Source: Alphaproteobacteria bacterium (GTDB lineage: Bacteria > Pseudomonadota > Alphaproteobacteria > Rhizobiales > GCA-2746425). Taken from it: a stretch of 64,000 nt of DNA. Positions 23,710 through 45,392 of the stretch are shown here, in pieces. The stretch spans positions 62,001 to 126,000 of the forward strand of contig JANSWZ010000009.1 of NCBI GenBank assembly GCA_024743215.1, given 5' to 3'. Made by a program: the position numbers and the translations under genes. The notes under the pieces are model-generated. The model searched no databases. It was not told the DNA's origin and saw only the letters and a program-made list of their open reading frames with translations. How positions within the stretch are numbered: position 1 is the stretch's first letter; every line of letters begins with the position of its first letter.

Positions 23710-24579
23710 TCATTTCTTGACGGCCCCCATTGTGAGGCCGCGAACGAGATGTTTCTGCATCAATAAAATGACAACAAACGCCGGAACGAGCGCAGACGTG
23801 CCGAGCGCAGTGGTGAATCCGGATAGGCCCCAGCCTGGCAGGATACTCATCTTGACCGGAAGCGTTGTGATTGAGTTTGTCAGAAAAATTGCGAGTAAAA
23901 ACTCGGTCCATGAAAAGATGAAACACAGCAATGCAGTCGCTGCCACGCCGCCTCTGATCATCGGTAACAGAACCAGTTTGAAAGATTGAAATCGGGTCGC
24001 GCCATCAATCATGGCAGCGTCCTCAATTTCAATCGGAACATCATCAATGAAAGACTTGAGCAGTAAAATGGCAATGGGAAGATTGATAACGGTATGGGCG
24101 ACAATCAATCCGAAATGCGTGTTGAGAATGCCGAGATCGCGGTAAAGCAATACAAGCGGGATGACGATGGCAATTGGTGGCAGACATCTCAGCGTCACAA
24201 GCCAATATTGCAGTCTGTGCACGCCGCGATTTATCAAACGAGATAGAGCATAGGCTGCCCATAGTGCAATTGACGTTGTCAGAATAGTTGATGCCACCGC
24301 AACGATGGTGGAAGAAGCAATGGAAGCCCGGCCGTCAAATATTTCAAACCCGCCAAACTGCCCCAATACCGTGATCAGGTAATTGTCAAAGGTCGGCCTA
24401 AAATCGAACCAGATGACATCATGACGGTTAAACCAAACAGACATTGGTTTGATTGAACTCAGCGCCCACCAAAAAATTGGAAACATGAAAACCGCAACCA
24501 CTGCGATAGACACCAGATAGCGTAAAAGGGTGGCAAGGGAATTTGCGATTGTCACGTCCATTCGGTTCTGCGCAGGCAT
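23710..24579 (-). CDS. Orphan carbohydrate ABC permease (MalG/CUT1 type)
   Basis: 289 residues, six helices, with the coupling loop EIEDAAMIDGATRFQSFKLVLLPMIRGG typical of MalG-type subunits (only its core EDAAMIDGA is diagnostic). Such permeases need a second permease, a binding protein and an ATPase; none is found next to it. It ends 33 bases from the convergent LacI gene. It is either the last survivor of a degraded sugar importer or works with subunits encoded elsewhere. The frame is intact, which argues against a long-dead gene. Confidence 0.8.
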   Translation of the reverse strand: MPAQNRMDVTIANSLATLLRYLVSIAVVAVFMFPIFWWALSSIKPMSVWFNRHDVIWFDFRPTFDNYLITVLGQFGGFEIFDGRASIASSTIVAVASTILTTSIALWAAYALSRLINRGVHRLQYWLVTLRCLPPIAIVIPLVLLYRDLGILNTHFGLIVAHTVINLPIAILLLKSFIDDVPIEIEDAAMIDGATRFQSFKLVLLPMIRGGVAATALLCFIFSWTEFLLAIFLTNSITTLPVKMSILPGWGLSGFTTALGTSALVPAFVVILLMQKHLVRGLTMGAVKK

Positions 24580-25199
24580 CTGAGTTTTAGGATGTAACAG
24601 CCACGTTTACATCAGAAAACTGGAAATTCTCGCAAATGCCAAGAGGGACTTGGCGAGCGCCAATGAAGCGGAGATCCTTCGGATTGTCTTCAAGCTCTTT
24701 ATATATCAATTGAACAAAGCAGGTCCGCTGGGAGTCAAAAATGTTTGCAAGGACCTGACCCCAAAGTGCACATAGTTTGGTGCACCGGCGGGGATGATGG
24801 TGGGAACATCTATTTAATAGATGTATCAATTTGACTCCTGAGAAGGATTATCGATCCACTAATACTGTTCCAGTTTGCTCATCGCTAAATCGTGAGCCCT
24901 TGAGCATCTAACCCCAAAGATTAGAAACAGACTAAATATAATCGGGGAGTTTTCAGGGGAGCACGTCACTTGACACACCCGTATTGGCCCAAAGCCGGAA
25001 CTTGCTTCCAATGTAAGCGGCAGCGACAAGCAGGAAGGGGACACGTCAAAGGAGCAATTGGCCGACCTGAGCGCGCTGACTTTTGTCGGAAACAAGGGTT
25101 GGGTGCGCGTGTCGTCAATAAGGAAACAGCTTACATCAACCTTCTAATGGAGTCTGATATCGTTCCGTTTCTCGGCAAATTTACCGGTTGATGTCACAT
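24580..25199. other. Low-GC spacer with a possible gene remnant
   Basis: No convincing intact gene. On the minus strand 24587-24829 encodes a stretch (QLIYKELEDNPKDLRF then GARQVPLGICENF) that weakly recalls the C-terminal part of Rap1a/Tai-type proteins, without a signal peptide. The remainder contains only short frames. The composition differs from the flanking metabolic genes and marks the start of an accessory region. Confidence 0.35.
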
Positions 25200-26006
25200 T
25201 CATTGTAGAACATCCAATTCTTGTCTCGATAACATCTTTTTAATTTCAGAAACAATTATCCAGTCAATCCCGCAATTAAAAAGATCAATTCTTCTTGGCA
25301 TTTCTTCGGGGTCAAGCCAACGACCAAAGCGCCAATAACCAGAACTCAATACGCCATCATACATCAACGTGGTTGATTGGGGATCCAAGATGTAATCCCT
25401 GAATTTCTGCGGAGCGTTTTCCCAGGTTGTCTTGGCCATATTCCTCACGATCTTCAGAATTGCGGGATTTGGGTCTTCCTCGTCAAATTCAAAACCATAT
25501 TCATTCAAGAAGAATGGAATAAAATTTGGATGTGCCCTGTTGGAACTGCTAATCAAACCAAGTTTCTTAAGAGCAAATTCAAAATTTGGTTCACATTCAA
25601 CTGTTTGCGAAACGTCTGTTGGATCATAGAGACAGTAACTATAGTGGCTGGAGAGGGACAGTGCGACGATCACGCAATCTTCCATAAGAGGACGGGCCGA
25701 TCTGGGTAATTTCTTAAGATGTGGTGGAATTTTTTCTCTAGATATTCGAAGTTTTGCACCTGTATTTGTAAAAGTACAAATTTCGCAATGGACCAGCAAC
25801 TGAGCAGCAATTTCCCACATTGTCGAGAAATAGTGTTCAAACTGCTGATCGCCTTGGGTAACGGTCTCGAGAGAATAAATCAGCAGCGCATCTACTGCCT
25901 CTCTTTCGTCTTTCTCAGGAATTTTCTTGAAGAAATTCTCGTCAAACTGATCCATTATCGAGCTCGCAAATTTGTGCGTTTCTACTGGCGGTTGAGAATA
26001 GGGCAA
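25200..26006 (-). CDS. Hypothetical protein, accessory region
   Basis: 268-residue soluble protein, mostly helical and charged, without signal peptide or membrane segment. Features are an acidic N-terminal helix (EKDEREAVDALLIYSLE), a cysteine pair (HCEICTF), and a C-terminal tryptophan-rich part (YWRFGRWLDPEEMP). I do not recognise the family. Base composition is clearly more AT-rich than the surrounding metabolic genes, suggesting acquisition by transfer. It stands alone, just left of the tRNA-like repeat at 26054. Confidence 0.55.
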   Translation of the reverse strand: MPYSQPPVETHKFASSIMDQFDENFFKKIPEKDEREAVDALLIYSLETVTQGDQQFEHYFSTMWEIAAQLLVHCEICTFTNTGAKLRISREKIPPHLKKLPRSARPLMEDCVIVALSLSSHYSYCLYDPTDVSQTVECEPNFEFALKKLGLISSSNRAHPNFIPFFLNEYGFEFDEEDPNPAILKIVRNMAKTTWENAPQKFRDYILDPQSTTLMYDGVLSSGYWRFGRWLDPEEMPRRIDLFNCGIDWIIVSEIKKMLSRQELDVLQ

Positions 26007-26053
26007 ACTGCGCTAATTCAAAAGCTCGAAGATAATTAGTCATTTGAAGAATA

Positions 26054-26098
26054 TGGTGCACCGGTCTGGATTCAAGCCAGTGACCTCTGCATTCAGGC
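26054..26098 (-). repeat. Degenerate tRNA-Arg 3' end (candidate attachment-site remnant)
   Basis: The plus strand aligns without gaps to the intact tRNA-Arg(CCG) at 34837-34881, in the same orientation: TGG, GCACC, GGATTC, GTGACCTCTGC and TTC are shared. Roughly a quarter of positions differ, and the T-stem keeps four pairs (CTGG with CCAG). A tRNA 3'-end copy in this direction, on the 3' side of the intact gene, is what integration at a tRNA leaves behind. Confidence 0.55.
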
Positions 26099-26147
26099 CG
26101 GACAAAAGCTGGCTTTCACCAAAGTCGGCAGGGTCGTTTGCAGAGGA

Positions 26148-27170
26148 TCAAACAACCCATTCGAAAAGATATCCCGCTGCCAGAGATCCAACGACCGCAA
26201 GGCCCAGATACAGAAGGAACGGTTTCAGCTTCAGGATCGGAGCAATGGCCATTGCGCCCCAGACGCTGACCACACCGCCGGATACCAGGAATGCCATGGC
26301 CGCGCCTGAAGACATGCCGTTCTCAATCAGGCTTCTGGCCAGAGGCAGTGCCGCATAGCCGTCGATGTAAGCGGGTGCACCGACGAAGACTGCAGCGGGG
26401 ATTGCCCACCACTGGTCCTGGCCCACGTAACTGGCAAGCGATCCGGGTGTCAGCGTTGCATTCAGCGCATATTCTGCAGCAAACGCCGGGGTCAGGCAGA
26501 TGAGGATCAGTCTGGTTGTGGCCCAGGCCTGATTGGTAAAAGAGGTCCATCGGCTCTGCGTCCGCCAGACCCAGGGGTCGAACGGCAAATCCGCACCGCA
26601 GCGCGCCGTGCTCAATTGGTGGGCAAGCCCGGAGTCGCGAAGTGCATTTTGCGCCCAGGCCCGCCGTGCAAACAGAGCTGTCACAGCGCCACCGAACAGG
26701 CCCAGACCAAACGCTGCCACTGTCTTGCCCACGGCAAAAGACAGGCCCAGGGTGGCGATGGTTGTGGCCAGCATGGCGGGATCGGTGACGGGAGATGACA
26801 GCCAGAAAGCCATGATCGGAGCCAGTGGTATGCCCGCCGCCAAGAGGCCGGCCATCAAGGGTAGTACCGTCACCCCGCAAACGGGCGTGATGGCGCCAAT
26901 CAGCGACGCAGCCACAATCGTCCGGGCGGTTTGCCCTTCAAAGGCGCGGGAGATATGAGCATCTGCGCCGCTTGCAATGATCCATGCCGCGACCAGGATG
27001 CCGGGCACAACAATTGGCGCGACAAAGACCAGACCCCAGACAACAAAATTCACGGCAGGAACGATGTGCGTTGGCCAGATCGCCGCAACCGCCAACAGCG
27101 CTCCTGCGCCCAATACTCCAAGGATATGGGGGCGATATGTGCGCGTTTTAATGGATGTCTGGTCGGGCAT
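26148..27170 (-). CDS. DUF318/ArsP-like predicted permease
   Basis: 340 residues from the ATG at 27170, chosen for its GGAG ribosome-binding site and because longer forms run into the divergent LysR gene. Eight or more membrane helices. The family signature is GAITPVCGVTVLPLMAGLLA (normally GAxxPxCxxGxxPL) followed by the SSPVTDPAML half, repeated in the second half around FVGAPAYIDGYAALPLA. Relatives include ArsP, which exports organoarsenicals, but the substrate here is unknown. It is divergent from a LysR regulator, with 73 bases between the two starts. Confidence 0.75.
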   Translation of the reverse strand: MPDQTSIKTRTYRPHILGVLGAGALLAVAAIWPTHIVPAVNFVVWGLVFVAPIVVPGILVAAWIIASGADAHISRAFEGQTARTIVAASLIGAITPVCGVTVLPLMAGLLAAGIPLAPIMAFWLSSPVTDPAMLATTIATLGLSFAVGKTVAAFGLGLFGGAVTALFARRAWAQNALRDSGLAHQLSTARCGADLPFDPWVWRTQSRWTSFTNQAWATTRLILICLTPAFAAEYALNATLTPGSLASYVGQDQWWAIPAAVFVGAPAYIDGYAALPLARSLIENGMSSGAAMAFLVSGGVVSVWGAMAIAPILKLKPFLLYLGLAVVGSLAAGYLFEWVV

Positions 27171-27243
27171 GGTGGGCTCCTCAATACTTGCAAGGTAGAG
27201 CGAGGAATGACATGTATAAATCGAATAGTTTAAATAGCTGCCA

Positions 27244-28104
27244 TTGGAAAAACAGATGGAGTGCCTCGACAGCGAGCTTTTGCGCACCTTCATCGCGGTC
27301 ACCAAAGCGGGCAGCGTCACCGATGGTGCTGCCCAAATCCATCGTTCCCAATCAGCCACCAGTCTTCAGATCAAGCGTTTGGAAACCATCATCGGACGCC
27401 CCATCTTTGAGCGGCACGGGCGCGGTGTCGTATTGACCGAAGCCGGGCGATACCTGCTTCCGATCGCCGACGAGGTGATCGCCCGTTTGGATGGCGCGCT
27501 TCGCGACTTGTCCCAACAGGCCGTGCGCGGGAAATTGAGGCTTGGTATTCCGGACGATCACGGGCGCGCCAAACTGGCGCAGATCATAGCCACCTTTACC
27601 CGTGCTCACCCGCAGGTCGAACTGGAGGTCACCTGTGCCTTGAGTCCCGAATTTCCTGGTGCGCTGGAAAAAGGTCGTCTTGATATGGCCGTCTATGAGG
27701 TCGAGCACCCGGCGCAGGGCGAAGAGCTGCTCGTTGAAGATCCCACATGCTGGGTTGCATCGGATCACACTGATTTTTCCGTGGTCGACCCACTGCCTGT
27801 TGCCTTGTTTGACCATGCTTGTTGGTGGCGCGACGCAGCGATTGCATCATTGCAGGCGCGGGGCAGGCCCTATCGGGTGGTCTACTCAAGCCAAAGCGTG
27901 CCAGGGGTGATCGCCGCAGTTGAGGCTGGTGTGGCGATTGGCCTTGTCGGGCAATCCTCTATCAAGCCCGGCCTGTCCAGGGTGTCCGCTGCATTTGGAT
28001 TCGACCCGACACCAACATCCAAGCTCGTTCTGGCAACAGGCAATTTGCACAATCCCGATCTCTTGATGGCCATGAAGTCAGCCATTCGGTCTGCACTGAA
28101 TTGA
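27244..28104 (+). CDS. LysR-family transcriptional regulator
   Basis: 286 residues from TTG, or 282 from the ATG at 27256. N-terminal winged HTH: LLRTFIAVTKAGSVTDGAA, QIHRSQSATSLQIKRLE, FERHGRGVVLTEAG. The C-terminal LysR substrate domain runs from about residue 90 (GKLRLGIPDDHG). It is divergent from the DUF318-like permease and probably controls it; the shared 73-base spacer (27171-27243) holds both promoters. Cysteines in the sensor half (DPTCW, DHACWW) could bind a metal or thiol reagent, but that is only a possibility. Confidence 0.88.
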   Translation: MEKQMECLDSELLRTFIAVTKAGSVTDGAAQIHRSQSATSLQIKRLETIIGRPIFERHGRGVVLTEAGRYLLPIADEVIARLDGALRDLSQQAVRGKLRLGIPDDHGRAKLAQIIATFTRAHPQVELEVTCALSPEFPGALEKGRLDMAVYEVEHPAQGEELLVEDPTCWVASDHTDFSVVDPLPVALFDHACWWRDAAIASLQARGRPYRVVYSSQSVPGVIAAVEAGVAIGLVGQSSIKPGLSRVSAAFGFDPTPTSKLVLATGNLHNPDLLMAMKSAIRSALN

Positions 28105-28551
28105 AATTTTGTACCTGATACGGGCAGACGGGTCGTTGCCACCGAGAGCCGCTGCACAAGCCCATTGACAGGCCAATAGGGATCACACGCTGCACCTGGA
28201 AACACGCCTGCGACCGAGATTTATCAGTTGCCAGATGGCGTATCCGGCGAAGACGCAACTGCCTGTGTCATAGCTCAAATTGACTGGAATGCCGCCTGTG
28301 GCATCGTCATGGATCAGGGGATTTGGGTCTTGCCTATGGCAACATGATAAACACAAAAAAGAGCTGTTTCTGAGCTTGCTGATTTATTGGAAATCGTGAC
28401 GTATACAACTTTTTGCGGAAGGTAAGGAACCGGCACCGCATAATCAAATCAACCAGATAAGCCAAACTCTCTCTTTTGGTTTAAGCTGCCATTGGTTCCA
28501 AAAACTCTGACGACGGACACTCCCGCGCGATTTGGTCTGACCGTGCCCCAA
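28105..28551. other. Intergenic region without visible gene
   Basis: Between the LysR gene and the convergent ATP-grasp gene. No coding frame with family features, no clear terminator with a T-run and no repeat was found. Confidence 0.45.
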
Positions 28552-30699
28552 TCAGGCCAAAGCAAGGGCATCCTTTGAAACGAAATATTTCTTTTCGTTT
28601 TCTTGGATAAGTTTTGCCATCACCATTGGGATGTTAACAGGCATACCTGTTGCCGGCGTTGCAAAGTCCTTATGCGCAATATTTTTCGTGTCATGTAAGT
28701 ACCAATGGCGTTTATCCTGGGTTTCAGGTCCATCGGTCAATCGGAAGACCAGCCGACCAAAATTCAAACCAGGGATTGCTAGTCGCACATTCTCGACGAG
28801 TTTCCTCAATTCTGAAGGGACATTGTCAATATTATGTTGCTTGCCAATCGCACGTAAAGCAACGGCCAGGACCTTATCATAGCCAAAGACAACATTAAGG
28901 AGCTTGAGTGTGTGCCACGGCGACAGGTAGAGTGGGCTGGTGTTTGACGGTTGTAGTCGGTTTGCGATTTTCTTCGCAGCTTCCAGGCTGTTGAATCGGT
29001 GAAACCACAATTTGGATACAGGATCAAAACCGTAAATCTGACCCTTGATTGTTTCAGGAAACTCGTCCAGGTCGCTCATCGACCAAATTGGTCGCAAAGG
29101 TGTCATGGAAATACCGCGTGTGTTGAGAAGTTCTCTGCGGGCAAGGTAATTTTTAGGAGAATGTAGCTTTTTTATATAACGCGTGTTGTTTCCGGCATTA
29201 GCCAACTCATAGCCATTTTGTTTCGGCAGTGCGGCGATGCCGTGCTCAAGTAGAACGCTCGCTGGATGTAACGACTTGGCTACGGCTTGGTTAATGTCGC
29301 CCTCATCTAGCCAAATGGGGGCGAAGGTGTCTGTGCTGAGTTTCAGACTCCTATTTTTTATCCCGCCAGCCACCTGATCACTTGCGTGACAGGAAATACA
29401 GCCCATTGTGTTCGTCGTTTCATTGATTTCAAAAATGACTTCAAACAAGTCTTTGCGCGATCCCTTGAAGCCGAATGTGTTCCAACCGTTTGTTGCAGCT
29501 GACGTTTTAAGATTGAGCTTGCTGGAGTCCAATTTCAACGTATTTGGGATGCGCAATGTCCAGTTTTCGCTGTCCGGCCAGTATCCCCTGTCGGTCTCCA
29601 GGCTCGCTGCCTGACGAACACAATCATTGAAAAACGGATAATGCTGTCCGTGCGTTGTATGGACCATAACACCACCCGTAGGGCGTGAGTTGATATCACA
29701 AATCGCTGAACGCTTTTCACTTGGCGGTTTGGTAAAGTCTTCGCAAAGCAAGTCCAGCCCCCAAAAACCTCGATCATCGAAAACTGAAGTAATCGACTCG
29801 CATAATGCTACGACGCCAGGATGGAGCAGCTCGGTGATCGGTACTAAATCAGCGCCATCTGATAAGTTGGGCCGAATGCCAAGGAGCACCAGCTTTCCTT
29901 TGGGTGGGACCGATTCAAGGTCCATCCCCTGATGTTTAAGTATTTCTTTAGCCAGCTCATTTTTCGGGATCAAGCTTTCATTGACCATATTTGGTAGTGT
30001 TTTCCGGAATTTGTTTTTGTTGTCTACCAACTTTGAAATCGAGTGTTCGCCGTCGCCGACTACGTTGGCGAATATGCGTAAATAAGCAACACGAACTTTT
30101 CCGCCAGCGAGCAATACGCGTAAATCGACCCCCGGGATGTACTCCTCAATCAAGCAGCGAAATGGGCCGAGCTCAGCCTCAGCGCTGTCATATGCCGCTA
30201 TGAGTTCGCCTTCCGAAGTGATATTTGTCGTCACGCCCTTTGATAAACTACCTCCACGGGGCTTTAGCACGATGGGGCATTTGAACTTCTTGAAAACCTC
30301 AAGTGCCTGTGTCTTGTTTGCTGCAGCAGCACTTTTTGGCGCAGAAATTCCGTGACGATTGAGAACTTCGTTGCTGTAAGACTTGTCCCCGGTGACGGCA
30401 ATATCCACTCTTGGTACGCTTGTGATCGCTGTAAGGTCTAGAATTTCACGTTTTCCATTCGGAGTTTCCAGCATTCTGATGCGTGGCTCTTTTGGGTTAA
30501 TCGGCTTGAAATAGACATTGAGACGCTCTCCGGCTTCATCAAGCTGATCAAATTTCCAAGTATCATTCTCAACTGAAAAATACTGAGGTTCCCGCAAATG
30601 AACTGGGAGATAGCTGTAGATTTTCTGAGATATATCGACCCATCTTGGATCAAATATCAGACGGTCAATGTAAAATTCTGCTGTTTTAGCTTTGCTCAT
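28552..30699 (-). CDS. ATP-grasp ligase with unknown C-terminal half and a CxxCH motif
   Basis: About 715 residues from the ATG at 30699 (a longer form starts at 30753). Residues about 105-370 form an ATP-grasp domain closest in pattern to cyanophycin-synthetase-type ligases: IVLKPRGGSLSKGV (ATP-lysine and glycine loop), LIEEYIPGVDLRVLL, VVGDGEHSISKLVD, and the metal site in LDLLCEDF and AICDINSRPTGG. Such enzymes join an amino group to an acyl-phosphate. The second half (about 400-715) is not recognised; it carries MGCISCHASD near residue 434, a CxxCH pattern as in c-type haem sites, odd for a protein without signal peptide. The gene is alone on its strand in the tRNA-Arg island. Substrates are unknown. 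Confidence 0.75.
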   Translation of the reverse strand: MSKAKTAEFYIDRLIFDPRWVDISQKIYSYLPVHLREPQYFSVENDTWKFDQLDEAGERLNVYFKPINPKEPRIRMLETPNGKREILDLTAITSVPRVDIAVTGDKSYSNEVLNRHGISAPKSAAAANKTQALEVFKKFKCPIVLKPRGGSLSKGVTTNITSEGELIAAYDSAEAELGPFRCLIEEYIPGVDLRVLLAGGKVRVAYLRIFANVVGDGEHSISKLVDNKNKFRKTLPNMVNESLIPKNELAKEILKHQGMDLESVPPKGKLVLLGIRPNLSDGADLVPITELLHPGVVALCESITSVFDDRGFWGLDLLCEDFTKPPSEKRSAICDINSRPTGGVMVHTTHGQHYPFFNDCVRQAASLETDRGYWPDSENWTLRIPNTLKLDSSKLNLKTSAATNGWNTFGFKGSRKDLFEVIFEINETTNTMGCISCHASDQVAGGIKNRSLKLSTDTFAPIWLDEGDINQAVAKSLHPASVLLEHGIAALPKQNGYELANAGNNTRYIKKLHSPKNYLARRELLNTRGISMTPLRPIWSMSDLDEFPETIKGQIYGFDPVSKLWFHRFNSLEAAKKIANRLQPSNTSPLYLSPWHTLKLLNVVFGYDKVLAVALRAIGKQHNIDNVPSELRKLVENVRLAIPGLNFGRLVFRLTDGPETQDKRHWYLHDTKNIAHKDFATPATGMPVNIPMVMAKLIQENEKKYFVSKDALALA

Positions 30700-30759
30700 G
30701 ATTGCCCCGCGTCGGTTCCCAGTAATTACACTACCCATCATGGCCAAGTCCATTATGCA

Positions 30760-30882
30760 GGCACACCGAATGTCTGGCGTGTCATCCGGAACATGGCAGG
30801 TCTGGATGATGTCCGCATGCCTGATCTTCGGGACTGTATTGCGAGCATAGCACTATCAGGGGGCAAGCCTGCCATCCACGAA
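30760..30882 (+). pseudogene. Tyrosine-integrase C-terminal remnant
   Basis: The plus-strand frame reads VWRVIRNMAGLDDVRMPDLR then DCIASIALSGGKP. It matches the box II region of rhizobial phage-type integrases (W..IR..AGL.DVR.HDLRH..AS.AL..G). The usual HDLRH is now PDLRD, so the active site is lost although the arginine remains. No upstream catalytic domain or downstream tyrosine box is visible; the frame continues into unrelated sequence to 31113. Confidence 0.6.
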
Positions 30883-31222
30883 ACCGAAGAGATCGTTACA
30901 AACCTGAGGCAGGTTGATTTCGGACGAGATCCCCTAAGTGAATTTGACTCTGAAGTTCAATTCCAAATGCAAACGCGCCCCTTACTTGGCGGGAACCAAA
31001 TCAGCCCATTGTATGCCAACGCGATGATGAATGCAGTGATCGAGCGCCAAAAATATTGGAATGGAAATCGATTGTTGAGCAATTGTTCTGAGTGCAAATT
31101 AATCTGTTTTTAGGTCAAAAAAACATTGGCTCACAGTGGCGTGCAAAAGAGGGCGGAAATTGCGCAGAAATGAGCTAATATGACGAGGCTGTGGGGGGCT
31201 CTTCCAATGAGAGGATGTCTCG

Positions 31223-31714
31223 ATGAGTACGCAAAATATCATTATTCAACAACCGCAACCCTTCGATCTGGTGGGAAGCAACATATTGATAGCCGGGATT
31301 GCCGTGGCCTTTGAGGGCACGCTGACCATCAATGTGAGCGAAGGGCATGACGAATATGCGTCTTTTACCACCGTTGGCTCGCTCGCGCTGAAACAATTTC
31401 AGGGCCACATCTCCATTCCTGAAACCAATTCCTTTCAACTCAGTCGCCTGTTCGTGCGGCTGGCAGATGACACAGGGAATGAAGATGGCCCAGCGGTCAC
31501 AATCCCGGTTCTGTTCGGGCCCAAAATTCTGCCCGGTTATACAGGATACCGGAACTACACGGTGGTTTCGGGAGACAATTTGACAAAAATTGCGCAAAGC
31601 GAATACGGCAACGATGACTTCCAGCCCATCCTGCAGGCGAACCAAGATATCATCAGCGATCCAGACCTGATCCTGGTCGGTCAGACATTGCGCATTCCCC
31701 GCAATGACACGTGA
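31223..31714 (+). CDS. Gmad2-like domain protein with C-terminal LysM
   Basis: 163 residues. The first part (about 10-95, PFDLVGSNILIAGIAVAFEG, then FQGHISIPETNSFQLSRLFV) resembles the immunoglobulin-like Gmad2 domain. Residues about 111-158 are a LysM module (YTVVSGDNLTKIAQSEYGN, ILQANQDIISDPDLI, VGQTLRIP) that binds peptidoglycan or chitin-like glycans. There is no signal peptide at the chosen ATG, so it is either exported by another route or works inside the cell, as some LysM proteins of phage tails and secretion devices do. An AGAGGATG sequence lies upstream of the ATG. Confidence 0.75.
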   Translation: MSTQNIIIQQPQPFDLVGSNILIAGIAVAFEGTLTINVSEGHDEYASFTTVGSLALKQFQGHISIPETNSFQLSRLFVRLADDTGNEDGPAVTIPVLFGPKILPGYTGYRNYTVVSGDNLTKIAQSEYGNDDFQPILQANQDIISDPDLILVGQTLRIPRNDT

Positions 31715-32509
31715 TCATGAGGTAGCGCCATGTGCTGATTAGGATGTGAATGCCGTCAGTGGATCACGATGTCTGCTGACGGCGGCCGCTTCCAGTCTTG
31801 GCTATTGGATAGCCACGCATCGCTACTCACGCCATCTGCAGCTCAAAAGACTACATCAAATCAGCAATGAGCATATCTGACAGGGATACATTTTATCCCT
31901 TCTTTGACACCTGAACGCAAAGGTTTTGGAACAACATTCAGGCACGTTGAATCATCGAGGGAATTTTTCTGCTCCCATATGCCAGCTTGACTACAACACT
32001 CAAAGACCACAAACGAGTCTCAACGGGCTGGCACCCTATGAATTTGTAACCCGGTCACAAGACCAAAACTGGAACAGAGCTAGCTAAAAAACGGGTGCAA
32101 TCTGGGGAGCAGGTCAACCAGACTGGTAGCGATCGATTTTCCATCGCTTTATTTGGTTGCGAGGGTCTGTCCATACCGAGTGCGAAGGATTGTACACATA
32201 GCGGTTTGATATGATTTTAACGATCACTTTCACAGTAAGTTGGCAGAGCTAGACCGAGGTCCCATATAAAAGTTTTATATAATAAAATCAGATTTTTATA
32301 AAAAAATTAGATTTCGATATCGTAGTGTAATTTCGTAGTAAATGAGAAGTTTCTATCATGAGCGAACGGCAATGCAAAAGCAATAAATAGATGTGCCGAT
32401 ACTCGTTGATGAGATGCCGGTATCCAATGTTCTATGGGTGTTATGAAAAATGATCATCTTAGATTAACATACTATTTTGGTCAGTCATATTGGGAAGCAG
32501 GCATTCATA
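31715..32509. other. AT-rich spacer in the island
   Basis: About 800 bases without a convincing gene. A hairpin GCCGTCAG (31752-31759) with CTGACGGC (31776-31783) follows the LysM gene but has a 16-base loop and no T-run. The part from 32270 to 32320 is extremely AT-rich (runs of TTTTATA and AAAAAAATTAG type) and probably carries the promoter for the next gene. Confidence 0.45.
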
Positions 32510-33184: not shown

Positions 33185-34096
33185 CTATTGCTTGAAGCAA
33201 TTATCCCGATGCCATTTTAGATATCTTGGGTGTGGTCGGTGTGATGGTGATGATGGCGGTATGGCTTTACCGGTATGATTGATCATTGCCTTGATTTGAT
33301 CAGGATCGTTGGTTTGACGAGAAATCAGAACCTCAAGATCATCACCCAGACCAATCAGACCTCTGTCAAACATCCAGTGAGCAGTGCCAGAAAGTGCAAG
33401 TCCATTGCGTATTGTATCAGGTCCATGATGCTGTACAGGCTTAATGTGAGCAGCTTCCACTTCAGCACGTCCACCACCATTGATGAGCTTTAACCCGGTG
33501 ATTGCACAACGACTATCATAAGCCTCCAACACAAGTTTTCTAAATACCCTGTCTCTGGGTATCCGGCTGATCGTTTGCTCTACCCGTGTTCGCTCATCAT
33601 CATAGGTAAATGGTTCCGGTACATCTGAAAATCCATCAAGGGGTACATATTCATCAATCGGATCAGCTCTTGGTAACAAGTCTGTCTCTTCTGGAAATCC
33701 TGTACCCACGATAGCCGCGAAATCCTTATCTGATACGGGTCTGATTGCCCATTGGACTAGACCACCGTTCAACTTTCCATCTGGCTTTCGTAGATCAGAT
33801 TCCATGAACCCATCATCTTTGCGAAATGATACAAATTGCTCAAATGGTAAAAAGGTATTGGGTTCTATCTCAGCGATGAACATATCAGGAATTACAGGGT
33901 CAGGAGCAATGGATCTTATCTTGGCAATACCAGTATAGCCAAGTCGCCCACCGCCACCACGGGGTTCATAGTAGATGATCCAATCATCGACATATTGCCG
34001 TGCACGATTCAAGTACCGCTTCGGGAACTGGTATCGTTCTTCAGGGAAGTCATCATATTTAGAATCTGCTCGATGGACGAGTATACCTTTTGCCAT
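33185..34096 (-). CDS. HNH endonuclease with N-terminal reader-like domain
   Basis: 303 residues. The C-terminal part (about 190-260) is an HNH_2-type nuclease: YDSRCAITG with the first cysteine, EAAHIKPVQHHGPDTIRNG (catalytic histidine and the following N) and LALSGTAHWMFDRGLIGL. The N-terminal half (about 1-110; DDWIIYYEPRGGGGRLGYTG and IAEIEPNTFLPFEQFVSF) looks like a PUA/EVE- or SRA-like base-binding fold. This combination is typical of modification-dependent restriction enzymes, so a defence role against modified phage DNA is a reasonable inference. No methyltransferase gene is adjacent. An AGAGGT ribosome-binding sequence precedes the ATG. Confidence 0.78.
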   Translation of the reverse strand: MAKGILVHRADSKYDDFPEERYQFPKRYLNRARQYVDDWIIYYEPRGGGGRLGYTGIAKIRSIAPDPVIPDMFIAEIEPNTFLPFEQFVSFRKDDGFMESDLRKPDGKLNGGLVQWAIRPVSDKDFAAIVGTGFPEETDLLPRADPIDEYVPLDGFSDVPEPFTYDDERTRVEQTISRIPRDRVFRKLVLEAYDSRCAITGLKLINGGGRAEVEAAHIKPVQHHGPDTIRNGLALSGTAHWMFDRGLIGLGDDLEVLISRQTNDPDQIKAMINHTGKAIPPSSPSHRPHPRYLKWHRDNCFKQ

Positions 34097-34222: not shown

Positions 34223-34678
34223 TTACATTCCCCACCGCTTTAACACTTCATCCGCATCTGAGCGATCCTCCTTTATCCGAATGGCAGTTTGCCGTGCTAC
34301 TCCTGCTTCAGGTGCAATAACGCTATCTCTACGACCCTGATCGATCATAACGGTGATCATTTCATAGGACGTCCGATCATATGGTGGCTTTCGTCCAGCG
34401 TCTTTAGTCTTATCGTTGATCGCATTGGCTATACCTAAGCGCTGAACTTGTTTTACCCTTCTGCTGTCGGCAGCCATGAGCGCTATCAGTGCGTCTCTCA
34501 CCGCTCGCAGGATGGGGCCCTTTGCAGATCCATCGAATGTCATGTTGTTAATGATCGTCTTGATGACAATGCCATCGTTCATGAATGTACGAATTGTTCC
34601 AGTAACGTCGGTATAATTGCGACCAAGACGATCTACCCACCGGACGACCAATGTGTCGGGAGAGGGGTGTAAAACCAT
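34223..34678 (-). pseudogene. Serine recombinase (resolvase family), N-terminus missing
   Basis: 151 residues that start inside the resolvase domain at DTLVVRWVDRLGRN, then TFMNDGIVIKTIINNM, and end with an HTH (GVARQTAIRIKED). The first 60 or so residues, with the catalytic serine and YxRVST-type motif, are absent, and the upstream sequence up to the tRNA shows no matching frame. The protein can no longer recombine DNA. It lies 158 bases from the tRNA-Arg gene, where an integration module would be expected. Confidence 0.75.
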
Positions 34679-34836
34679 TAGAAACCACGGCTTTCGGAGA
34701 GGTTTGAGGACAAAAGAACGGTGCTAAAACTCGTTGTTCCAAGCTCTATTGCTATCATCGAAATGGGGTTTTCGAACCGCCGTAACCGCTGTACCTTTTA
34801 GGGCGTTTGCAGACATTTCAACCAATGAAAAGGTTA

Positions 34837-34913
<77 letters not shown>

Positions 34914-34977
34914 TTTGGATATGAAGTCTGTTTAGCGGATGCGGTGGCTGGTCGCAACGGGGAAATCGGGCTGACGT

Positions 34978-35006
34978 AAAAAAGGTCGGCATCTACGCCG
35001 ACCTTT
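34978..35006 (-). terminator. Rho-independent terminator
   Basis: Perfect 10-base stem AAAGGTCGGC (34981-34990) with GCCGACCTTT (34997-35006), loop ATCTAC. On the minus strand it is followed by a run of T, so it ends the gene at 35018-35581. It also insulates the tRNA-Arg gene. Confidence 0.85.
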
Positions 35007-35017
35007 GTCACATTGCT

Positions 35018-35581
35018 CTACCAGGTGCGCCGTGGTCCCACATCTATGTGGTAGTGGCCGCCGCGATAGTATTTATAGCCGCCAACGCCGGGATGGCTTT
35101 TGAGGAAGCGGACGACGGCTTCCGGATTGGCGCGCACGCCAAAATCAGCCGCCTTGCATTTGCGATGCCACGATTTGCGGGCGCCACCTTTGAGCAGATT
35201 TTCCAGCCACCAGCGTTTGGTTGAAGTCACCGACACCGGGCCGAATTGATGAGCCACATCCTGCAGGACATTCTTAAGGCGCCGTGGCAGGCACCATTTC
35301 GTGTCGGAATAGGTCACCTGCGCATGGGGGTAAGGCACACCGGATTTACGCGTGCTGCCACAGCCGGCAAGGGCAAAGGCCAGCAGCATGATGGCCAGAA
35401 CCAGTGCCATGCGTTGCAGGTTGATCGGCTGCGGGTCAAACGGTTTGCGCGGCTGAACCGGTCGGCTAAAACGCCGACCAAAGCGGGTTTGCCCGGCAGC
35501 GTGAGAACCGGGAATATCCGGCACGCTGAAGGTGGCGTTCAGGGCGTCTGTGCCCGAGTGTTTTTGAGTGCGATGTTCCAT
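35018..35581 (-). CDS. Peptidase M15-like (YcbK/DUF882-type) exported protein
   Basis: 187 residues as drawn. The C-terminal domain has the M15-type zinc pattern: KSWHRKCKAADFGV (His and Asp) and the closing GHYHIDVG histidine. Such proteins cut or bind peptidoglycan peptides. A hydrophobic segment with a lipobox (ALVLAIMLLAFALAGC) begins at an inner methionine (35410). Use of that start would give a 130-residue lipoprotein; the longer N-terminus is proline-rich and may not be translated. Its terminator follows at 34978-35006. Confidence 0.65.
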   Translation of the reverse strand: MEHRTQKHSGTDALNATFSVPDIPGSHAAGQTRFGRRFSRPVQPRKPFDPQPINLQRMALVLAIMLLAFALAGCGSTRKSGVPYPHAQVTYSDTKWCLPRRLKNVLQDVAHQFGPVSVTSTKRWWLENLLKGGARKSWHRKCKAADFGVRANPEAVVRFLKSHPGVGGYKYYRGGHYHIDVGPRRTW

Positions 35582-35639
35582 GGGCGCACCCTACCCACGC
35601 AGGGTTAATTTCGTGATGAGAAAGCTGGTTGATAAAGTG

Positions 35640-37631
35640 TTACCAGCCGCCCCCGCCGGAGCTGCCACCGCCGCCGCCGGCGAAGCCGCCGGAACTGCGT
35701 CCGCCGCTGCTGCGCCTGCTGCTTTTGGGCGCAGGAATGGATGACCGCATATCCTGCTCCAATGTGCGCGAGAGCCGTCCAAGATCACGGCCTAAATGGT
35801 TGAAGCCCCGCCCGTGATGCCCGTACCAGTTGGAGGAGCGCATGGAAGCGGCCTCAGCCACAGTGGCGCTTTCCAGCCAGCGATCAAATGCGCTGGACCA
35901 CGGCTTTTCAAGCTCTAGGGCGATGGCGAAAGGCAGCAGGGTTTCAAAATGCTGCGGTGACATTTTGGGCGCACCTTGCAAGTTCAATCGGTCCTGCTCT
36001 GCCAGTTGCAGATAGGTTTTCAGCCCTTCAATCTTGGTTAGCACCTGCTGGCCCAGAGGTGTTGGGGCCTGCATCAGTTTGAAGAACAGCGCATTCACAG
36101 CGACCACCGCACTCAGCACCAGAAGAACCAGCGGATTGTCGATCTGAAATCCGTCAATGATCAACGGCACGACGCTCACTGCGCCCATAAGTATGCCAGC
36201 CAGTGGGATCAGCGAAATTATCAACTGCCACCACCTGCGGCGATGAGCCTGCAAGGACCGAATAACGCGCAGCAAAAACACGCCGACAAATATGAGAAAA
36301 ATAATTGAGGCCATCAGCGGCGGAATGAGATTGACAAGACTGCCTTGTGACAGCACCAGCAGCGCAATGACGCCCAGCACCGACAGGGCGACGCCGACAA
36401 TGCAATAGCCGCGATTGATCCGGAAAAAGACCTGGCCATGCTCGCGCTCAATTGCACCCCGAAATTTGCTCACCATGCTCTTGATGGCCTTGCCCTTGGC
36501 TTTTGAGAATTGCAGGGTTTCACCCTGTTCCAGTCTGGACAGCAAAGCGGCCTCGCCGGTGGCCGGTGTCATGCGATTCTGTGGGGCTTGTGTTTTCGCG
36601 GTGCGCGTGATTGAAGGCGTTTTGTCAAAGCCGGAAATGGTCAGAAAGCCGCCCACGGCCAGATTGACGAGCGAGGAAGAAAGCGCGCGAAACGGATTGC
36701 CTCCGAAACCGCGATTTTGAACATAATTGGCAAGTGCAGGCGAGATGCCATCTGGTGGTGTCCAGTCAGGTACCACCACGCCGCCCGGCGGATCGCGCCC
36801 GACACGCAGCCAAACCGCCATGTAATAAAGGCTCACCAAAAGCAGAATCAGGATAGAGCCGACAATTTCCAGATGGTCGCGCAAATACCACAAGACCAGT
36901 TGTCTGAAATCCGGCTCACGAACGGCCCCTTTTTCAAACTCGGCCCGTACAGTGATAATCTCGCCTGGCGGAAGCACGTCCTGCCGCGCATAAAATGCGA
37001 TGTTTTTATCCTCTGACAGATAGTGGTTTGACTGGCTGTTCTCATCGCCAAAGGCACCAGCGTAAAAGTCTGCCGAGATCAATTTCCTTCTTTTGCGCAC
37101 ACGAATAGATGCTGTGACGCTATCAATGGGGAGGTTTTCAAAGTCACCGGCGACGTTCCAGATCAGGAAATCCATGTCCGCGCCAAACTGTACCTGCCGG
37201 TCTACCCTGTAGCGAATTGAATACACATGTTCGCCAATGGGAAGAAGCACATTCTCATCACCGATGATCAGGCGCACATTGCCCGGAAAATACTCAACTC
37301 TGAATTTTTCCGGCACGCCATTGCGCGTAACTTCGCGAAATTTGTACGAGATCTTTTGCAGACTGCCATCCGCTTCCTCCCGGACGGTGCTGAAGTCGCG
37401 ATAAATTCCGCGCCTGATCTGCTTGCGCTCCGCGCGCACGGTGATGTTGTCGCGAACACTGAGCCGACCACCTTTCGGAATAGAAATTTTGGTGTCGAAG
37501 GATACAACGCTTTCTCTTGCCTGCACCTGCTGTGGCAGGGCAAGAAGTGAGACAATCAGCAAAAGCGCGTAGGTACCAGGCAGCAGGGTGCGAGCAATCG
37601 CAGCAAAACCGGTTGTTATGAGGCGCGTCAC
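35640..37631 (-). CDS. DUF2207-domain membrane protein
   Basis: About 664 residues from the GTG at 37631, eight bases after the lemA stop. This start gives a clean signal peptide (ALLLIVSLLALPQQVQA); an ATG start at 37676 or 37724 would overlap lemA. The extracytoplasmic DUF2207 domain (about 45-250: VVSFDTKISIPKGGRLSV, RGIYRDFSTV) is followed by membrane helices near 265, 420, 450, 500 and 525, and a serine- and glycine-rich tail. Proteins of this type travel with LemA across bacteria, and the coupled order here agrees. The function is poorly known and probably concerns the envelope. Confidence 0.82.
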   Translation of the reverse strand: MTRLITTGFAAIARTLLPGTYALLLIVSLLALPQQVQARESVVSFDTKISIPKGGRLSVRDNITVRAERKQIRRGIYRDFSTVREEADGSLQKISYKFREVTRNGVPEKFRVEYFPGNVRLIIGDENVLLPIGEHVYSIRYRVDRQVQFGADMDFLIWNVAGDFENLPIDSVTASIRVRKRRKLISADFYAGAFGDENSQSNHYLSEDKNIAFYARQDVLPPGEIITVRAEFEKGAVREPDFRQLVLWYLRDHLEIVGSILILLLVSLYYMAVWLRVGRDPPGGVVVPDWTPPDGISPALANYVQNRGFGGNPFRALSSSLVNLAVGGFLTISGFDKTPSITRTAKTQAPQNRMTPATGEAALLSRLEQGETLQFSKAKGKAIKSMVSKFRGAIEREHGQVFFRINRGYCIVGVALSVLGVIALLVLSQGSLVNLIPPLMASIIFLIFVGVFLLRVIRSLQAHRRRWWQLIISLIPLAGILMGAVSVVPLIIDGFQIDNPLVLLVLSAVVAVNALFFKLMQAPTPLGQQVLTKIEGLKTYLQLAEQDRLNLQGAPKMSPQHFETLLPFAIALELEKPWSSAFDRWLESATVAEAASMRSSNWYGHHGRGFNHLGRDLGRLSRTLEQDMRSSIPAPKSSRRSSGGRSSGGFAGGGGGSSGGGGW

Positions 37632-42890: not shown

Positions 42891-43121
42891 TGTTGGTGCA
42901 ATGGGCGGAGAGCGGACATCTGAAGACATTTTGGATTTCATCTCAGACTCCTCGGAAGCTGACATTCGAATAATTTGCTACATGAAAGTCCGGAGAATAG
43001 ACAAGGTTCAAATCTGCTGTCCAAAACTTGTCTGTTCATCATTTCAGGGGCCCGTATATTGGACGGTGGGCTTCAAAGCGTACCGCGCAATAGATGAGTT
43101 TGTTGAGTGACAGAGGATAAA

Positions 43122-45392
43122 ATGCCTAAAAAAGCTGATGGCACTGGCCAATTTATTGTACCCGATACTGACAGGGCGATTTCAGATCCAGAAGATGACC
43201 AATATGGCTTTGTCGAGCTAGCGCAAAAGCTTGCTCCATCCGTCATTGCTGCAACACAGACTGATGGAATGGTTATCGGTGTTGAGGGAAAATGGGGATC
43301 AGGAAAAACTTCGCTGCTCAATTTTCTCCATTCAGAGCTGAATGATCAGGGTGATCAAAAGGACATTCATGTCATCAGCATCGCACCTTGGCTTCAAGGA
43401 GATGAAAATGATCTAGCGGTACTGTTGCTATCGCAAATTTCCGCCGCGCTTGAATCTGAAGTGCAGGATAGTAAAAACAAAAACGCCCCCGACAAAACTA
43501 AGTTCAAGGAAAATGCAAAGCTTTTCAAATCCTATGCTGTAAAGGTTGGGCGGGGCGTTTCTCCACTCCTGAAAATCGCGGGGCATATCGTTCCGGGAGT
43601 TGGAGTTGCAGGAAGTGTTGCTGAAGGTGCAACGAATTATCTTGCGGAATGGGGATCTGATGAGACGACAACGGAGCTCAAAGGAAGAATTGTCGAGCGC
43701 TTAAACCAAAGTAAATTCCGCTTTGTGGTCCTTATGGATGATCTAGACCGCCTAGAACCGGCGCAAACCGTTGAGGTCATTCGCTTGGTTCGCTCGGTCG
43801 CGGATTTTCCAAAGGTGGCCTATTGCCTTTGTTATGATCGTGATGTTCTGACGCACGCCTTGGAACAAGGGCTGGGTGTGAAAGATGGCGATTTATATTT
43901 GCAAAAGATGGTCCAGCTATCTTTTGCCATTCCCTTGCCTGAACCTTTTGATTTGCGCGGAAGGCTCAAGGAAAAACTTCTGGGATTCTATGAATTGTTA
44001 CATGCAAGGGAAGCAAGCGGAGAGCTTAAATCCAAACTTCTCGATGTGATTGACAGGGAAGGCGGCATGATGGAAGTGCCACGTGATGTAGCGCTTGCAT
44101 TCAATGCGATCAAGTTTGCTTACCCATCGATAAAAGAAGATTGCTATTTTCCCGATGTGTGCTGGATTCAGCTCATTAAAATTAAACGGCCCAAGCTCTA
44201 TCGCTGGATAGAAAAGTACTTAGCGACTCGGACAGTGTTGGTTACAAGCACGGCAAGACTGAATAGAGAAAGCCGCAGGCAGACGGGGCAAGAACTTAAA
44301 AAGCTACTTCCTGCTGAAGATCTTGAGGCAACAGAATCGATCTATCGTGTGGGACAGTTTGTTTCCGGATTGGAGCATTACGCAAAAAATCATTACAATA
44401 ATAGCGACAAGGATGCTGGTGAAGAGGTTCATGTTTTCCAATCGTCACTGGGTAACAGCATTACCGAGATGATGGCCCTGAAACGGATTGGAAGCCCACT
44501 TCACTCGCGAATATATTTTGCCTTTGCTATCCCCAAAACTGTAATGCCGGATGCGAAGTTTGACGAACTTCGAAATGCCGCCGCCAAGGATGTCCCGAAG
44601 CTTACCAACATGTTGTCAAAACTAGCGGGAGATTGGCGGCCTGTAGGTGGAACATGGTTTTCTCATGTAATGGATAGACTCGACGGCGGGCTTTTTAATG
44701 AGATGGAGATCACAGAGCTCAAAGGGTGGGCCATAGCGATTTCAGATAGTATGGACCGTGTGATTGAAGAAGATAATGAGCGTCCAGGACTCATGTTAGA
44801 TACAGCTACAGAGACGCAATTTCGTGTCCAGCGCTTGCTCAGGCTTATCCGGGAGAATGATGCCGATGTCGCTCACGGTCTCATTATCTCGATTTTTAAT
44901 CAATCTCCTTCAATGAACTGGCTTGTGAGTGATTTATTTCGACAGGAGCTATTCGATCATGGCATTGTTGGTGACCGAGAAAGGCCAAATGATAGAGCTT
45001 TGACCGCCGAAGAGGTTGCCAAGATAAAGACAATTCTGAAAACGCGTTTAAAGAATGAATCCGTGCGCGCCGCTATTGGCAATTATTCGAACCTTGCTGG
45101 TTTTCTATACGGATGGCGCGATTTGGCAGGTATACGCTCTCCAAAAACCTGGGTTAAAAAATATACGAAAGAGGATAGGAATTTTCTCAGATTCCTTAGT
45201 GGCATGAAAAGTTGGGTCACGTCAGACAAGACTTACTATCCTCTGAAAAAGGATAATGTGGAGAGATTTCTGGATTGGGATCTCGTCACACAAAGAGTAG
45301 ATGAACTGGCTGATAACACTGATGATCAGATCGCTTCGCTTGCAGGAGATATCCAAGAAGCTATCGTATTGTCTGAAAATGTGCGTTGGTGA
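43122..45392 (+). CDS. KAP-family P-loop NTPase
   Basis: About 756 residues from the ATG at 43122 (AGAGGA at 43112-43117; a GTG at 43107 is less likely). Walker A is GKWGSGKT at residues 56-63, and the Walker B-like segment VVLMDDLDRLEP is near 205. Between them lies a hydrophobic, glycine-rich insert (SPLLKIAGHIVPGVGVAGSV), the membrane-associated insertion typical of KAP proteins. The rest is helical and not recognised. KAP NTPases act in phage exclusion and in Qat-type defence. No qatBCD-like partner is adjacent, and the region is AT-rich, so a stand-alone defence or accessory role is plausible but unproven. Confidence 0.82.
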   Translation: MPKKADGTGQFIVPDTDRAISDPEDDQYGFVELAQKLAPSVIAATQTDGMVIGVEGKWGSGKTSLLNFLHSELNDQGDQKDIHVISIAPWLQGDENDLAVLLLSQISAALESEVQDSKNKNAPDKTKFKENAKLFKSYAVKVGRGVSPLLKIAGHIVPGVGVAGSVAEGATNYLAEWGSDETTTELKGRIVERLNQSKFRFVVLMDDLDRLEPAQTVEVIRLVRSVADFPKVAYCLCYDRDVLTHALEQGLGVKDGDLYLQKMVQLSFAIPLPEPFDLRGRLKEKLLGFYELLHAREASGELKSKLLDVIDREGGMMEVPRDVALAFNAIKFAYPSIKEDCYFPDVCWIQLIKIKRPKLYRWIEKYLATRTVLVTSTARLNRESRRQTGQELKKLLPAEDLEATESIYRVGQFVSGLEHYAKNHYNNSDKDAGEEVHVFQSSLGNSITEMMALKRIGSPLHSRIYFAFAIPKTVMPDAKFDELRNAAAKDVPKLTNMLSKLAGDWRPVGGTWFSHVMDRLDGGLFNEMEITELKGWAIAISDSMDRVIEEDNERPGLMLDTATETQFRVQRLLRLIRENDADVAHGLIISIFNQSPSMNWLVSDLFRQELFDHGIVGDRERPNDRALTAEEVAKIKTILKTRLKNESVRAAIGNYSNLAGFLYGWRDLAGIRSPKTWVKKYTKEDRNFLRFLSGMKSWVTSDKTYYPLKKDNVERFLDWDLVTQRVDELADNTDDQIASLAGDIQEAIVLSENVRW

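Follow-up and report, generated by a model that had tools for sequence, protein, structure and literature searches.

A two-part protein with a cyanophycin-synthetase-like ATP-grasp domain and an unrecognised C-terminal half in an alphaproteobacterium

Introduction

The closest described relatives of the protein reported here are the cyanophycin synthetases, of which CphA1 is built from an N domain, an ATP-grasp G domain and a Mur-ligase M domain. The cryo-EM study of the enzyme TeCphA1 identifies Asp431 and Glu450 as the Mg ligands, places Lys220 and Lys261 in contact with phosphates, and describes Arg309 as essential and the P-loop residue His267 as critical; contacts to aspartate are assigned to Asn394, Arg323 and Arg458 (PMC9427784). 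GshAB/GshF and N-acetylglutaminylglutamine synthetase contain ATP-grasp domains of the same type.

The window, a stretch of 64,000 nucleotides from an alphaproteobacterial genome (contig JANSWZ010000009.1, positions 62,001 to 126,000), encodes a distant member of this group. A preliminary description had placed an open reading frame at 28552-30699, which is present as described (minus strand, 715 residues), and had divided its product into a cyanophycin-synthetase-like core and an unrecognised second half. The features of the locus are collected in Table 1. The reading to which we incline, by a modest measure over even, is that of a cytosolic two-domain ATP-dependent ligase in which the orphan half serves as a partner domain, the gene is single-gene cargo and the CxxCH motif does not hold covalent haem.

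Table 1. Features of the locus, with positions in the window
Feature	Position	Strand	Basis
715-aa gene, ATP-grasp core and orphan C-terminal half	28552..30699	-	open reading frame
ATP-grasp domain, GSH-synthetase/CphA G-domain type, residues ~90-350	29650..30432	-	NCBIfam, PDB matches, alignment
C-terminal half, residues 354-715, without recognised relative	28555..29640	-	family, PDB, genome, plasmid and phage searches
CISCH (CxxCH), residues 434-438	29386..29400	-	sequence
IS3-family element, remnant of one end, adjoining the 3' end of the gene	28436..28525		DNA match
Decayed dehydrogenase-like gene fragments	28122..28412		open frame in G003 and G002; name by eye
Decayed tyrosine-recombinase (integrase) catalytic fragment, probable	30754..31068	+	105-residue stretch
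LysM + Gmad2 protein	31223..31714	+	in sister genome without the 715-aa gene
LysR-type regulator, left neighbour, common with sister genome G003	27244..28104	+	sister comparison
tRNA-Arg (CCG)	34837..34913	-	degenerate copy of its 3' part at 26052-26094

The ATP-grasp domain

The NCBIfam model for cyanophycin synthetase (TIGR02068) matches residues 90-347 with an E of 2.3e-44 and 151.6 bits, the cut-off being 850, and cyanophycin synthases in the PDB match within residues 78-353, with E down to 5.4e-29; these matches bear out the core proposed in the preliminary description. On the 715-residue protein the NCBIfam models for GshAB/GshF (NF002688) and N-acetylglutaminylglutamine synthetase (TIGR03103) reach 103.3 and 100.2 bits against cut-offs of 425 and 569, respectively. 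The Pfam ATP-grasp models give E down to 3.9e-5, yet remain below their cut-offs, RimK attaining 20.6 of 21 bits. When the RimK model was used in the genome search, the gene scored 23.6 bits, above the cut-off, and three other matches were returned from the same genome, two of which are by eye a carbamoyl-phosphate synthase and a biotin-dependent carboxylase. No second place in this genome matches the 715-residue protein at E <= 0.001.

Residue conservation was assessed by aligning the query with 29 domains, drawn from 28 relative proteins; loci L011 and L013 were left out by an E limit of 1e-9. Lys106, Lys146, Arg194 and Asn337 are the same in all 29 relative domains, Asp216 in 28 and Arg208 in 27. 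By alignment position Asp316 is the first Mg ligand. The second is Asp335 in the query and glutamate in 29/29 relative domains, and in the P-loop the query has Ser153 where 28 of the 29 have glycine. Correspondence with the TeCphA1 residues named in the cryo-EM study was established by our own matching of motif spacing. It pairs Lys106, Lys146, Arg194 and Arg208 with Lys220, Lys261, Arg309 and Arg323, in that order; Asp431 is kept and an asparagine stands at the place of Asn394, whereas Glu450 is replaced by Asp, His267 by Leu152 and Arg458 by Gly343.

The nucleotide lysines, the catalytic arginine and the Mg ligands, with one Asp for Glu, and the profile and PDB matches place the domain in the ATP-grasp superfamily. 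Judged from these residues, the carboxylate-activating machinery looks largely present and the features particular to cyanophycin synthesis look to be gone. With Asp335 in place of glutamate and Ser153 in place of glycine, the active site may have little activity or none. The query forms the longest branch in a tree of 30 domains, with 4.16 changes per column, and its placement is unsure.

The C-terminal half

The second half was described at the outset as unrecognised, and so it has stayed: neither an accepted family nor a PDB match was obtained. The query consisted of residues 354-715, 374-715 or 389-715, depending on the search. There was no Pfam family at E <= 0.001, no NCBIfam family at E <= 1, no PHROGs family at E <= 0.1 and no PDB sequence at E <= 10, a 100-residue piece giving chance-level PDB matches only. 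Rad52, with E of 0.025-0.13, fell below its cut-off and is taken as chance.

Genome searches gave the same picture. At E <= 0.001 the own genome alone was matched in sets of 5, 385 and 398 genomes, and at E <= 0.01 there were matches in 0/229 and 0/5 other genomes; among five genomes of the genus the second half occurs only in that of the window. At E <= 0.05, a search of 397 genomes returned the own genome and three weak matches (12.5-15.1 bits, E 0.0135-0.0496), which are at chance level. There is overlap between these samples, and a single phylum supplied all of them, so that relatives may exist in other phyla. Collections of plasmids, phages and viral contigs gave no match to this half. 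A scan of contigs by short peptide patterns, sensitive to close relatives only, found one locus, encoding a cyanophycin-synthetase-like protein.

Two structure models computed from the single sequence were poor, with mean pLDDT of 31.4 and 37.3. In the second, residues ~374-423 (pLDDT ~56-65) suggested an acylphosphatase or ferredoxin-like fold; this candidate was dropped, the best Foldseek E being 0.063 and none reaching 0.001.

Could the second half be a Mur-ligase-like domain that has diverged strongly, or else another ATP-grasp lobe, and the protein therefore an ordinary arrangement that has drifted beyond sequence recognition? Its position after the ATP-grasp domain would fit, a tandem ATP-grasp protein from Agrobacterium is found among the relatives, and CphA2 is described, in the TeCphA1 study, as having no P-loop and lid in its M domain (PMC9427784). 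By eye, residues ~480-560 resemble the linker that precedes an ATP-grasp domain, and residues ~605-660 the C-terminal part of a Mur ligase. Against this, the C-terminal half is not among the matches listed for the profiles of seven CphA-type proteins and of the 29 relative ATP-grasp domains with the query's own, with which its shuffled versions reach at most 1.2 and 3.0 bits (hmmsearch). With hhalign its probabilities are 0.1 and 0.3%, while the reversed sequence gives 0.1 and 1.5%, and no Mur P-loop is visible by eye. A hidden Mur ligase or second lobe thus gains no support over shuffled or reversed sequence, and we regard it as quite improbable. The search for a known ligase partner domain in this half, proposed with the preliminary description, accordingly found none in Pfam, NCBIfam or the CphA and ATP-grasp profiles.

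The CxxCH motif

Within the second half the segment MGCISCHASD, which occurs once in the 715-residue protein, carries a haem-c-like CxxCH pattern. It is a rare motif: 0.002 occurrences are expected in this protein by composition, and over 400 kb of the own genome it is present in 0/370 longest non-overlapping open reading frames. In the same 400 kb, 282 frames of at least 250 residues contain no CxxCH, as against 41 CxxC, and CISCH is the sole CxxCH among the stop-to-stop frames of at least 150 residues in the window. This rarity is the argument for a real haem or redox-metal site, through which the second half would sense redox state and gate the ligase. It concerns, however, a single motif singled out after the fact, and the searches found no homologue of this half in which the motif could be followed.

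Further points tell against such a site. Inspection by eye reveals no hydrophobic stretch or export signal at the N-terminus, in agreement with the preliminary description, whereas c-type cytochromes are periplasmic (PMC9616876). The Pfam model for cytochrome P460 (PF16694) matches with E of 0.013-0.2, below its cut-off. A P460 profile was built from 28 of 30 fetched loci, two (L062 and L064) lacking a usable frame, and gave 8.8 bits on residues 353-470. None of the 431 plain shuffles reported, out of 500 made, reached this score, but 53/500 shuffles that keep GCISCHAS did. Because motif-keeping shuffles score as high, the P460 resemblance is attributed to the motif itself, and cytochrome P460 was set aside. 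The own genome has no P460 match at E <= 0.001, no sign of a cytochrome family was found around CISCH beyond the motif, and a literature search combining ATP-grasp with CXXCH found no paper.

Of the haem-c-like pattern, then, the motif stands, and no further trait of a c-type cytochrome was seen. The pattern is not yet distinguishable from chance, haem c in this protein is unlikely, and a haem or redox-metal site that gates the ligase is quite doubtful.

Reading frame and genomic setting

An in-frame ATG at 30753, upstream of the annotated start, would extend the product to 733 residues. The start at 30699 is reasonable because a GGGG run lies upstream of it at about the distance of a ribosome site. 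Promoter and terminator scans yielded sites no more numerous than in shuffles. Codon statistics, with 14 long genes of the window as the training set, were compared over all six frames, and the annotated frame is the best of the six in the N-terminal part, in the ATP-grasp part and in each third of the C-terminal half. In these thirds it scores 0.117, -0.022 and 0.178, the other five frames <= -0.083, so the second half is no out-of-frame tail. By part the gene scores 0.174, -0.003 and 0.092, which is low against 0.107-0.455 in the training genes; three further genes of the stretch, at 32477, 33185 and 34223, likewise score low (-0.151, -0.073 and 0.006).

The DNA of the gene has 45-50% G+C, its flanks 56-62% (26200-28300) and 54-61% (34600-36000). 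Remnants of mobile elements adjoin it. The IS3 remnant, which lies some 30 bp away from the stop codon, is identical at 79/88 positions to plasmid DNA of Sulfitobacter, at the end of a gene annotated as IS3 transposase. The fragment on the other side matches a Ruegeria integrase at 24/65 residues around WRxIRxxAGLxxVRxxDLR, with a collection-wide E of 0.07-0.1. The preliminary view that the gene stands alone in an island is consistent with its low G+C and these remnants, but another stretch of low G+C (43-46%) lies at 24400-26200. Two copies of the 3' part of tRNA-Arg (26052-26094 and 34835-34877, 81% over 43 bp) bound a stretch of 8.8 kb and are possibly an old attachment-site pair.

Comparison with G003, the genome of a sister species, bears on the origin of the gene. 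There the permease and LysR genes (window 26052-28106) are 93% identical, and the LysM gene (window 31071-31846, 91%) follows LysR after ~0.15 kb; in the window the two are separated by ~2.96 kb that contains the 715-residue gene. G003 has no relative of the second half, and distant ATP-grasp relatives are present in three sister genomes, G003 included. The mobile remnants and the low G+C favour a gain here rather than a loss in G003, two genomes being compared. The LysM protein does lie beside the gene, as first described. Since G003 has LysR and LysM ~0.15 kb apart without the gene, the link between them is weakened and LysM is probably not a functional partner.

A different account of the locus sees the gene as decaying or chimeric: nearby rearrangements would have put unrelated DNA in place of the 3' part of an ATP-grasp gene, leaving a C-terminal half devoid of partner function and an accidental CxxCH. 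The orphan state of that half, the nearness of the IS3 end to the stop codon, the decayed pieces on both sides, the long branch and the altered Mg ligand and P-loop all lend themselves to this account. Yet an open frame of 715 codons survives, and all thirds of the C-terminal half score as coding DNA should, unlike a tail that is shifted or random; on balance we hold this account to be unlikely.

A role in defence, raised in the preliminary description, is not supported: neither the whole protein nor residues 374-715 matched a PADLOC family at E <= 0.01. As a defence hint, an HNH nuclease gene a few kb away is a weak association. This gene (33185-34096, minus strand; low GC3, 0.355) resembles phosphorothioate-DNA restriction enzymes, with 105.3 bits for NF045808 against a cut-off of 180, and also matches the PADLOC HNH model PDLC04132. 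Other pieces in the vicinity are the tail of an IS3-family transposase gene at 31987-32116 (DYNTQRPQTSLNGLAPYEF...), with copies elsewhere in the own genome and in two sister genomes, and a partial serine recombinase beside the tRNA-Arg (34223-34678, minus strand), matched by Resolvase from profile position 65 onwards and by a PHROGs DNA invertase. Further along, at 43107-45392 (plus strand), a KAP-family NTPase matches the PADLOC PifA model at 765.8 bits. Long DNA matches to four sister genomes stop near 42916, with one weak match of 116 bp beyond (query to 44000), and the KAP region may be an insertion.

Proposed function

The protein is probably an ATP-dependent carboxylate-amine ligase acting on a substrate other than that of cyanophycin synthetase, its second half being a partner domain, as far as sequence can indicate. 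From the behaviour of the family, the ATP-grasp half would phosphorylate a carboxylate at the expense of ATP, and the acyl phosphate would be passed to an amine, giving a peptide- or amide-type bond. The orphan half occupies the place taken in cyanophycin synthetase by the Mur-ligase domain; judged by that position, it probably binds or shapes the substrate or holds an oligomer together. The neighbours and the one sister genome suggest a gene left as single-gene cargo in decayed mobile DNA, and the CxxCH pair most likely serves locally as a thiol or metal site, or is a chance feature of this one sequence, rather than a point of covalent haem attachment. An unusual peptide, amide or amino-compound product, as the preliminary description had it, is a reasonable inference by analogy with the ATP-grasp family.

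A bolder version would make the C-terminal 360 residues a new ligase partner domain. Its CxxCH, as a thiol or metal site in the cytosol, would select the substrate of the ATP-grasp half or gate it by redox state, and the enzyme would yield an amide or peptide that known enzymes of the cyanophycin-synthetase-like kind do not make; we consider this version improbable. Against the main reading speak the altered Mg ligand and P-loop, the long branch, the low codon scores and the single example, for which the searches found no full-length homologue; nor was a partner gene or precursor peptide noticed beside the gene. The gene could also be decaying cargo.

If the two halves do cooperate, the protein would show ATP-grasp ligases in a new architecture, one whose substrate does not resemble cyanophycin. 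It would also serve to test whether solitary orphan domains carried on mobile DNA are genuine enzymes or mere remains. The case rests on a single sequence found in one genome; its interest is therefore modest, and it will carry little weight until another example comes to light.

Comparison with known systems

GshAB/GshF and N-acetylglutaminylglutamine synthetase share the type of ATP-grasp domain. The query differs from the former in having no glutamate-cysteine ligase domain and from the latter in having no GNAT domain, both by Pfam, and lies far below the cut-offs of both families.

Among the relatives, UXS43101.1 of an Agrobacterium pAt plasmid (L034 1-4837) has ~1,660 residues and three ATP-grasp regions by Pfam. 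Annotated as hypothetical, it combines one ATP-grasp domain of the YheCD type with two CphA-like ones, the last of which aligns with residues 106-352 of the query, including the stretch around HGQ; it has no match to the C-terminal half. In a Microvirga protein (L036 3356-6370) a CphA-like ATP-grasp domain is fused to CapA/PGA_cap, and the Mur TNGK pattern was not found. Proteins of ~1,091-1,109 residues with a CphA-like ATP-grasp domain are encoded in sister genomes G003 (L012) and G002 (L008); in the former, the part after the ATP-grasp domain resembles an adenylate-forming (PaaK-like) domain by eye.

With regard to CphA2, the C-terminal half is unlike the profile of the seven CphA-type proteins with Mur domains, a profile that is not specific to CphA2. 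As to CphA1, its N domain is not recognisable in the query (PF18921 not being among the Pfam matches), its Mur-ligase M domain was not found, matches stopping at residue ~350, and the score is below the family cut-off. The P-loop histidine and Asp-binding arginine of TeCphA1 are replaced, by motif spacing, and the Mg-ligand glutamate is an aspartate. What the query has in common with CphA1 is the ATP-grasp G domain, in which the ATP, Mg and core arginine residues are mostly kept.
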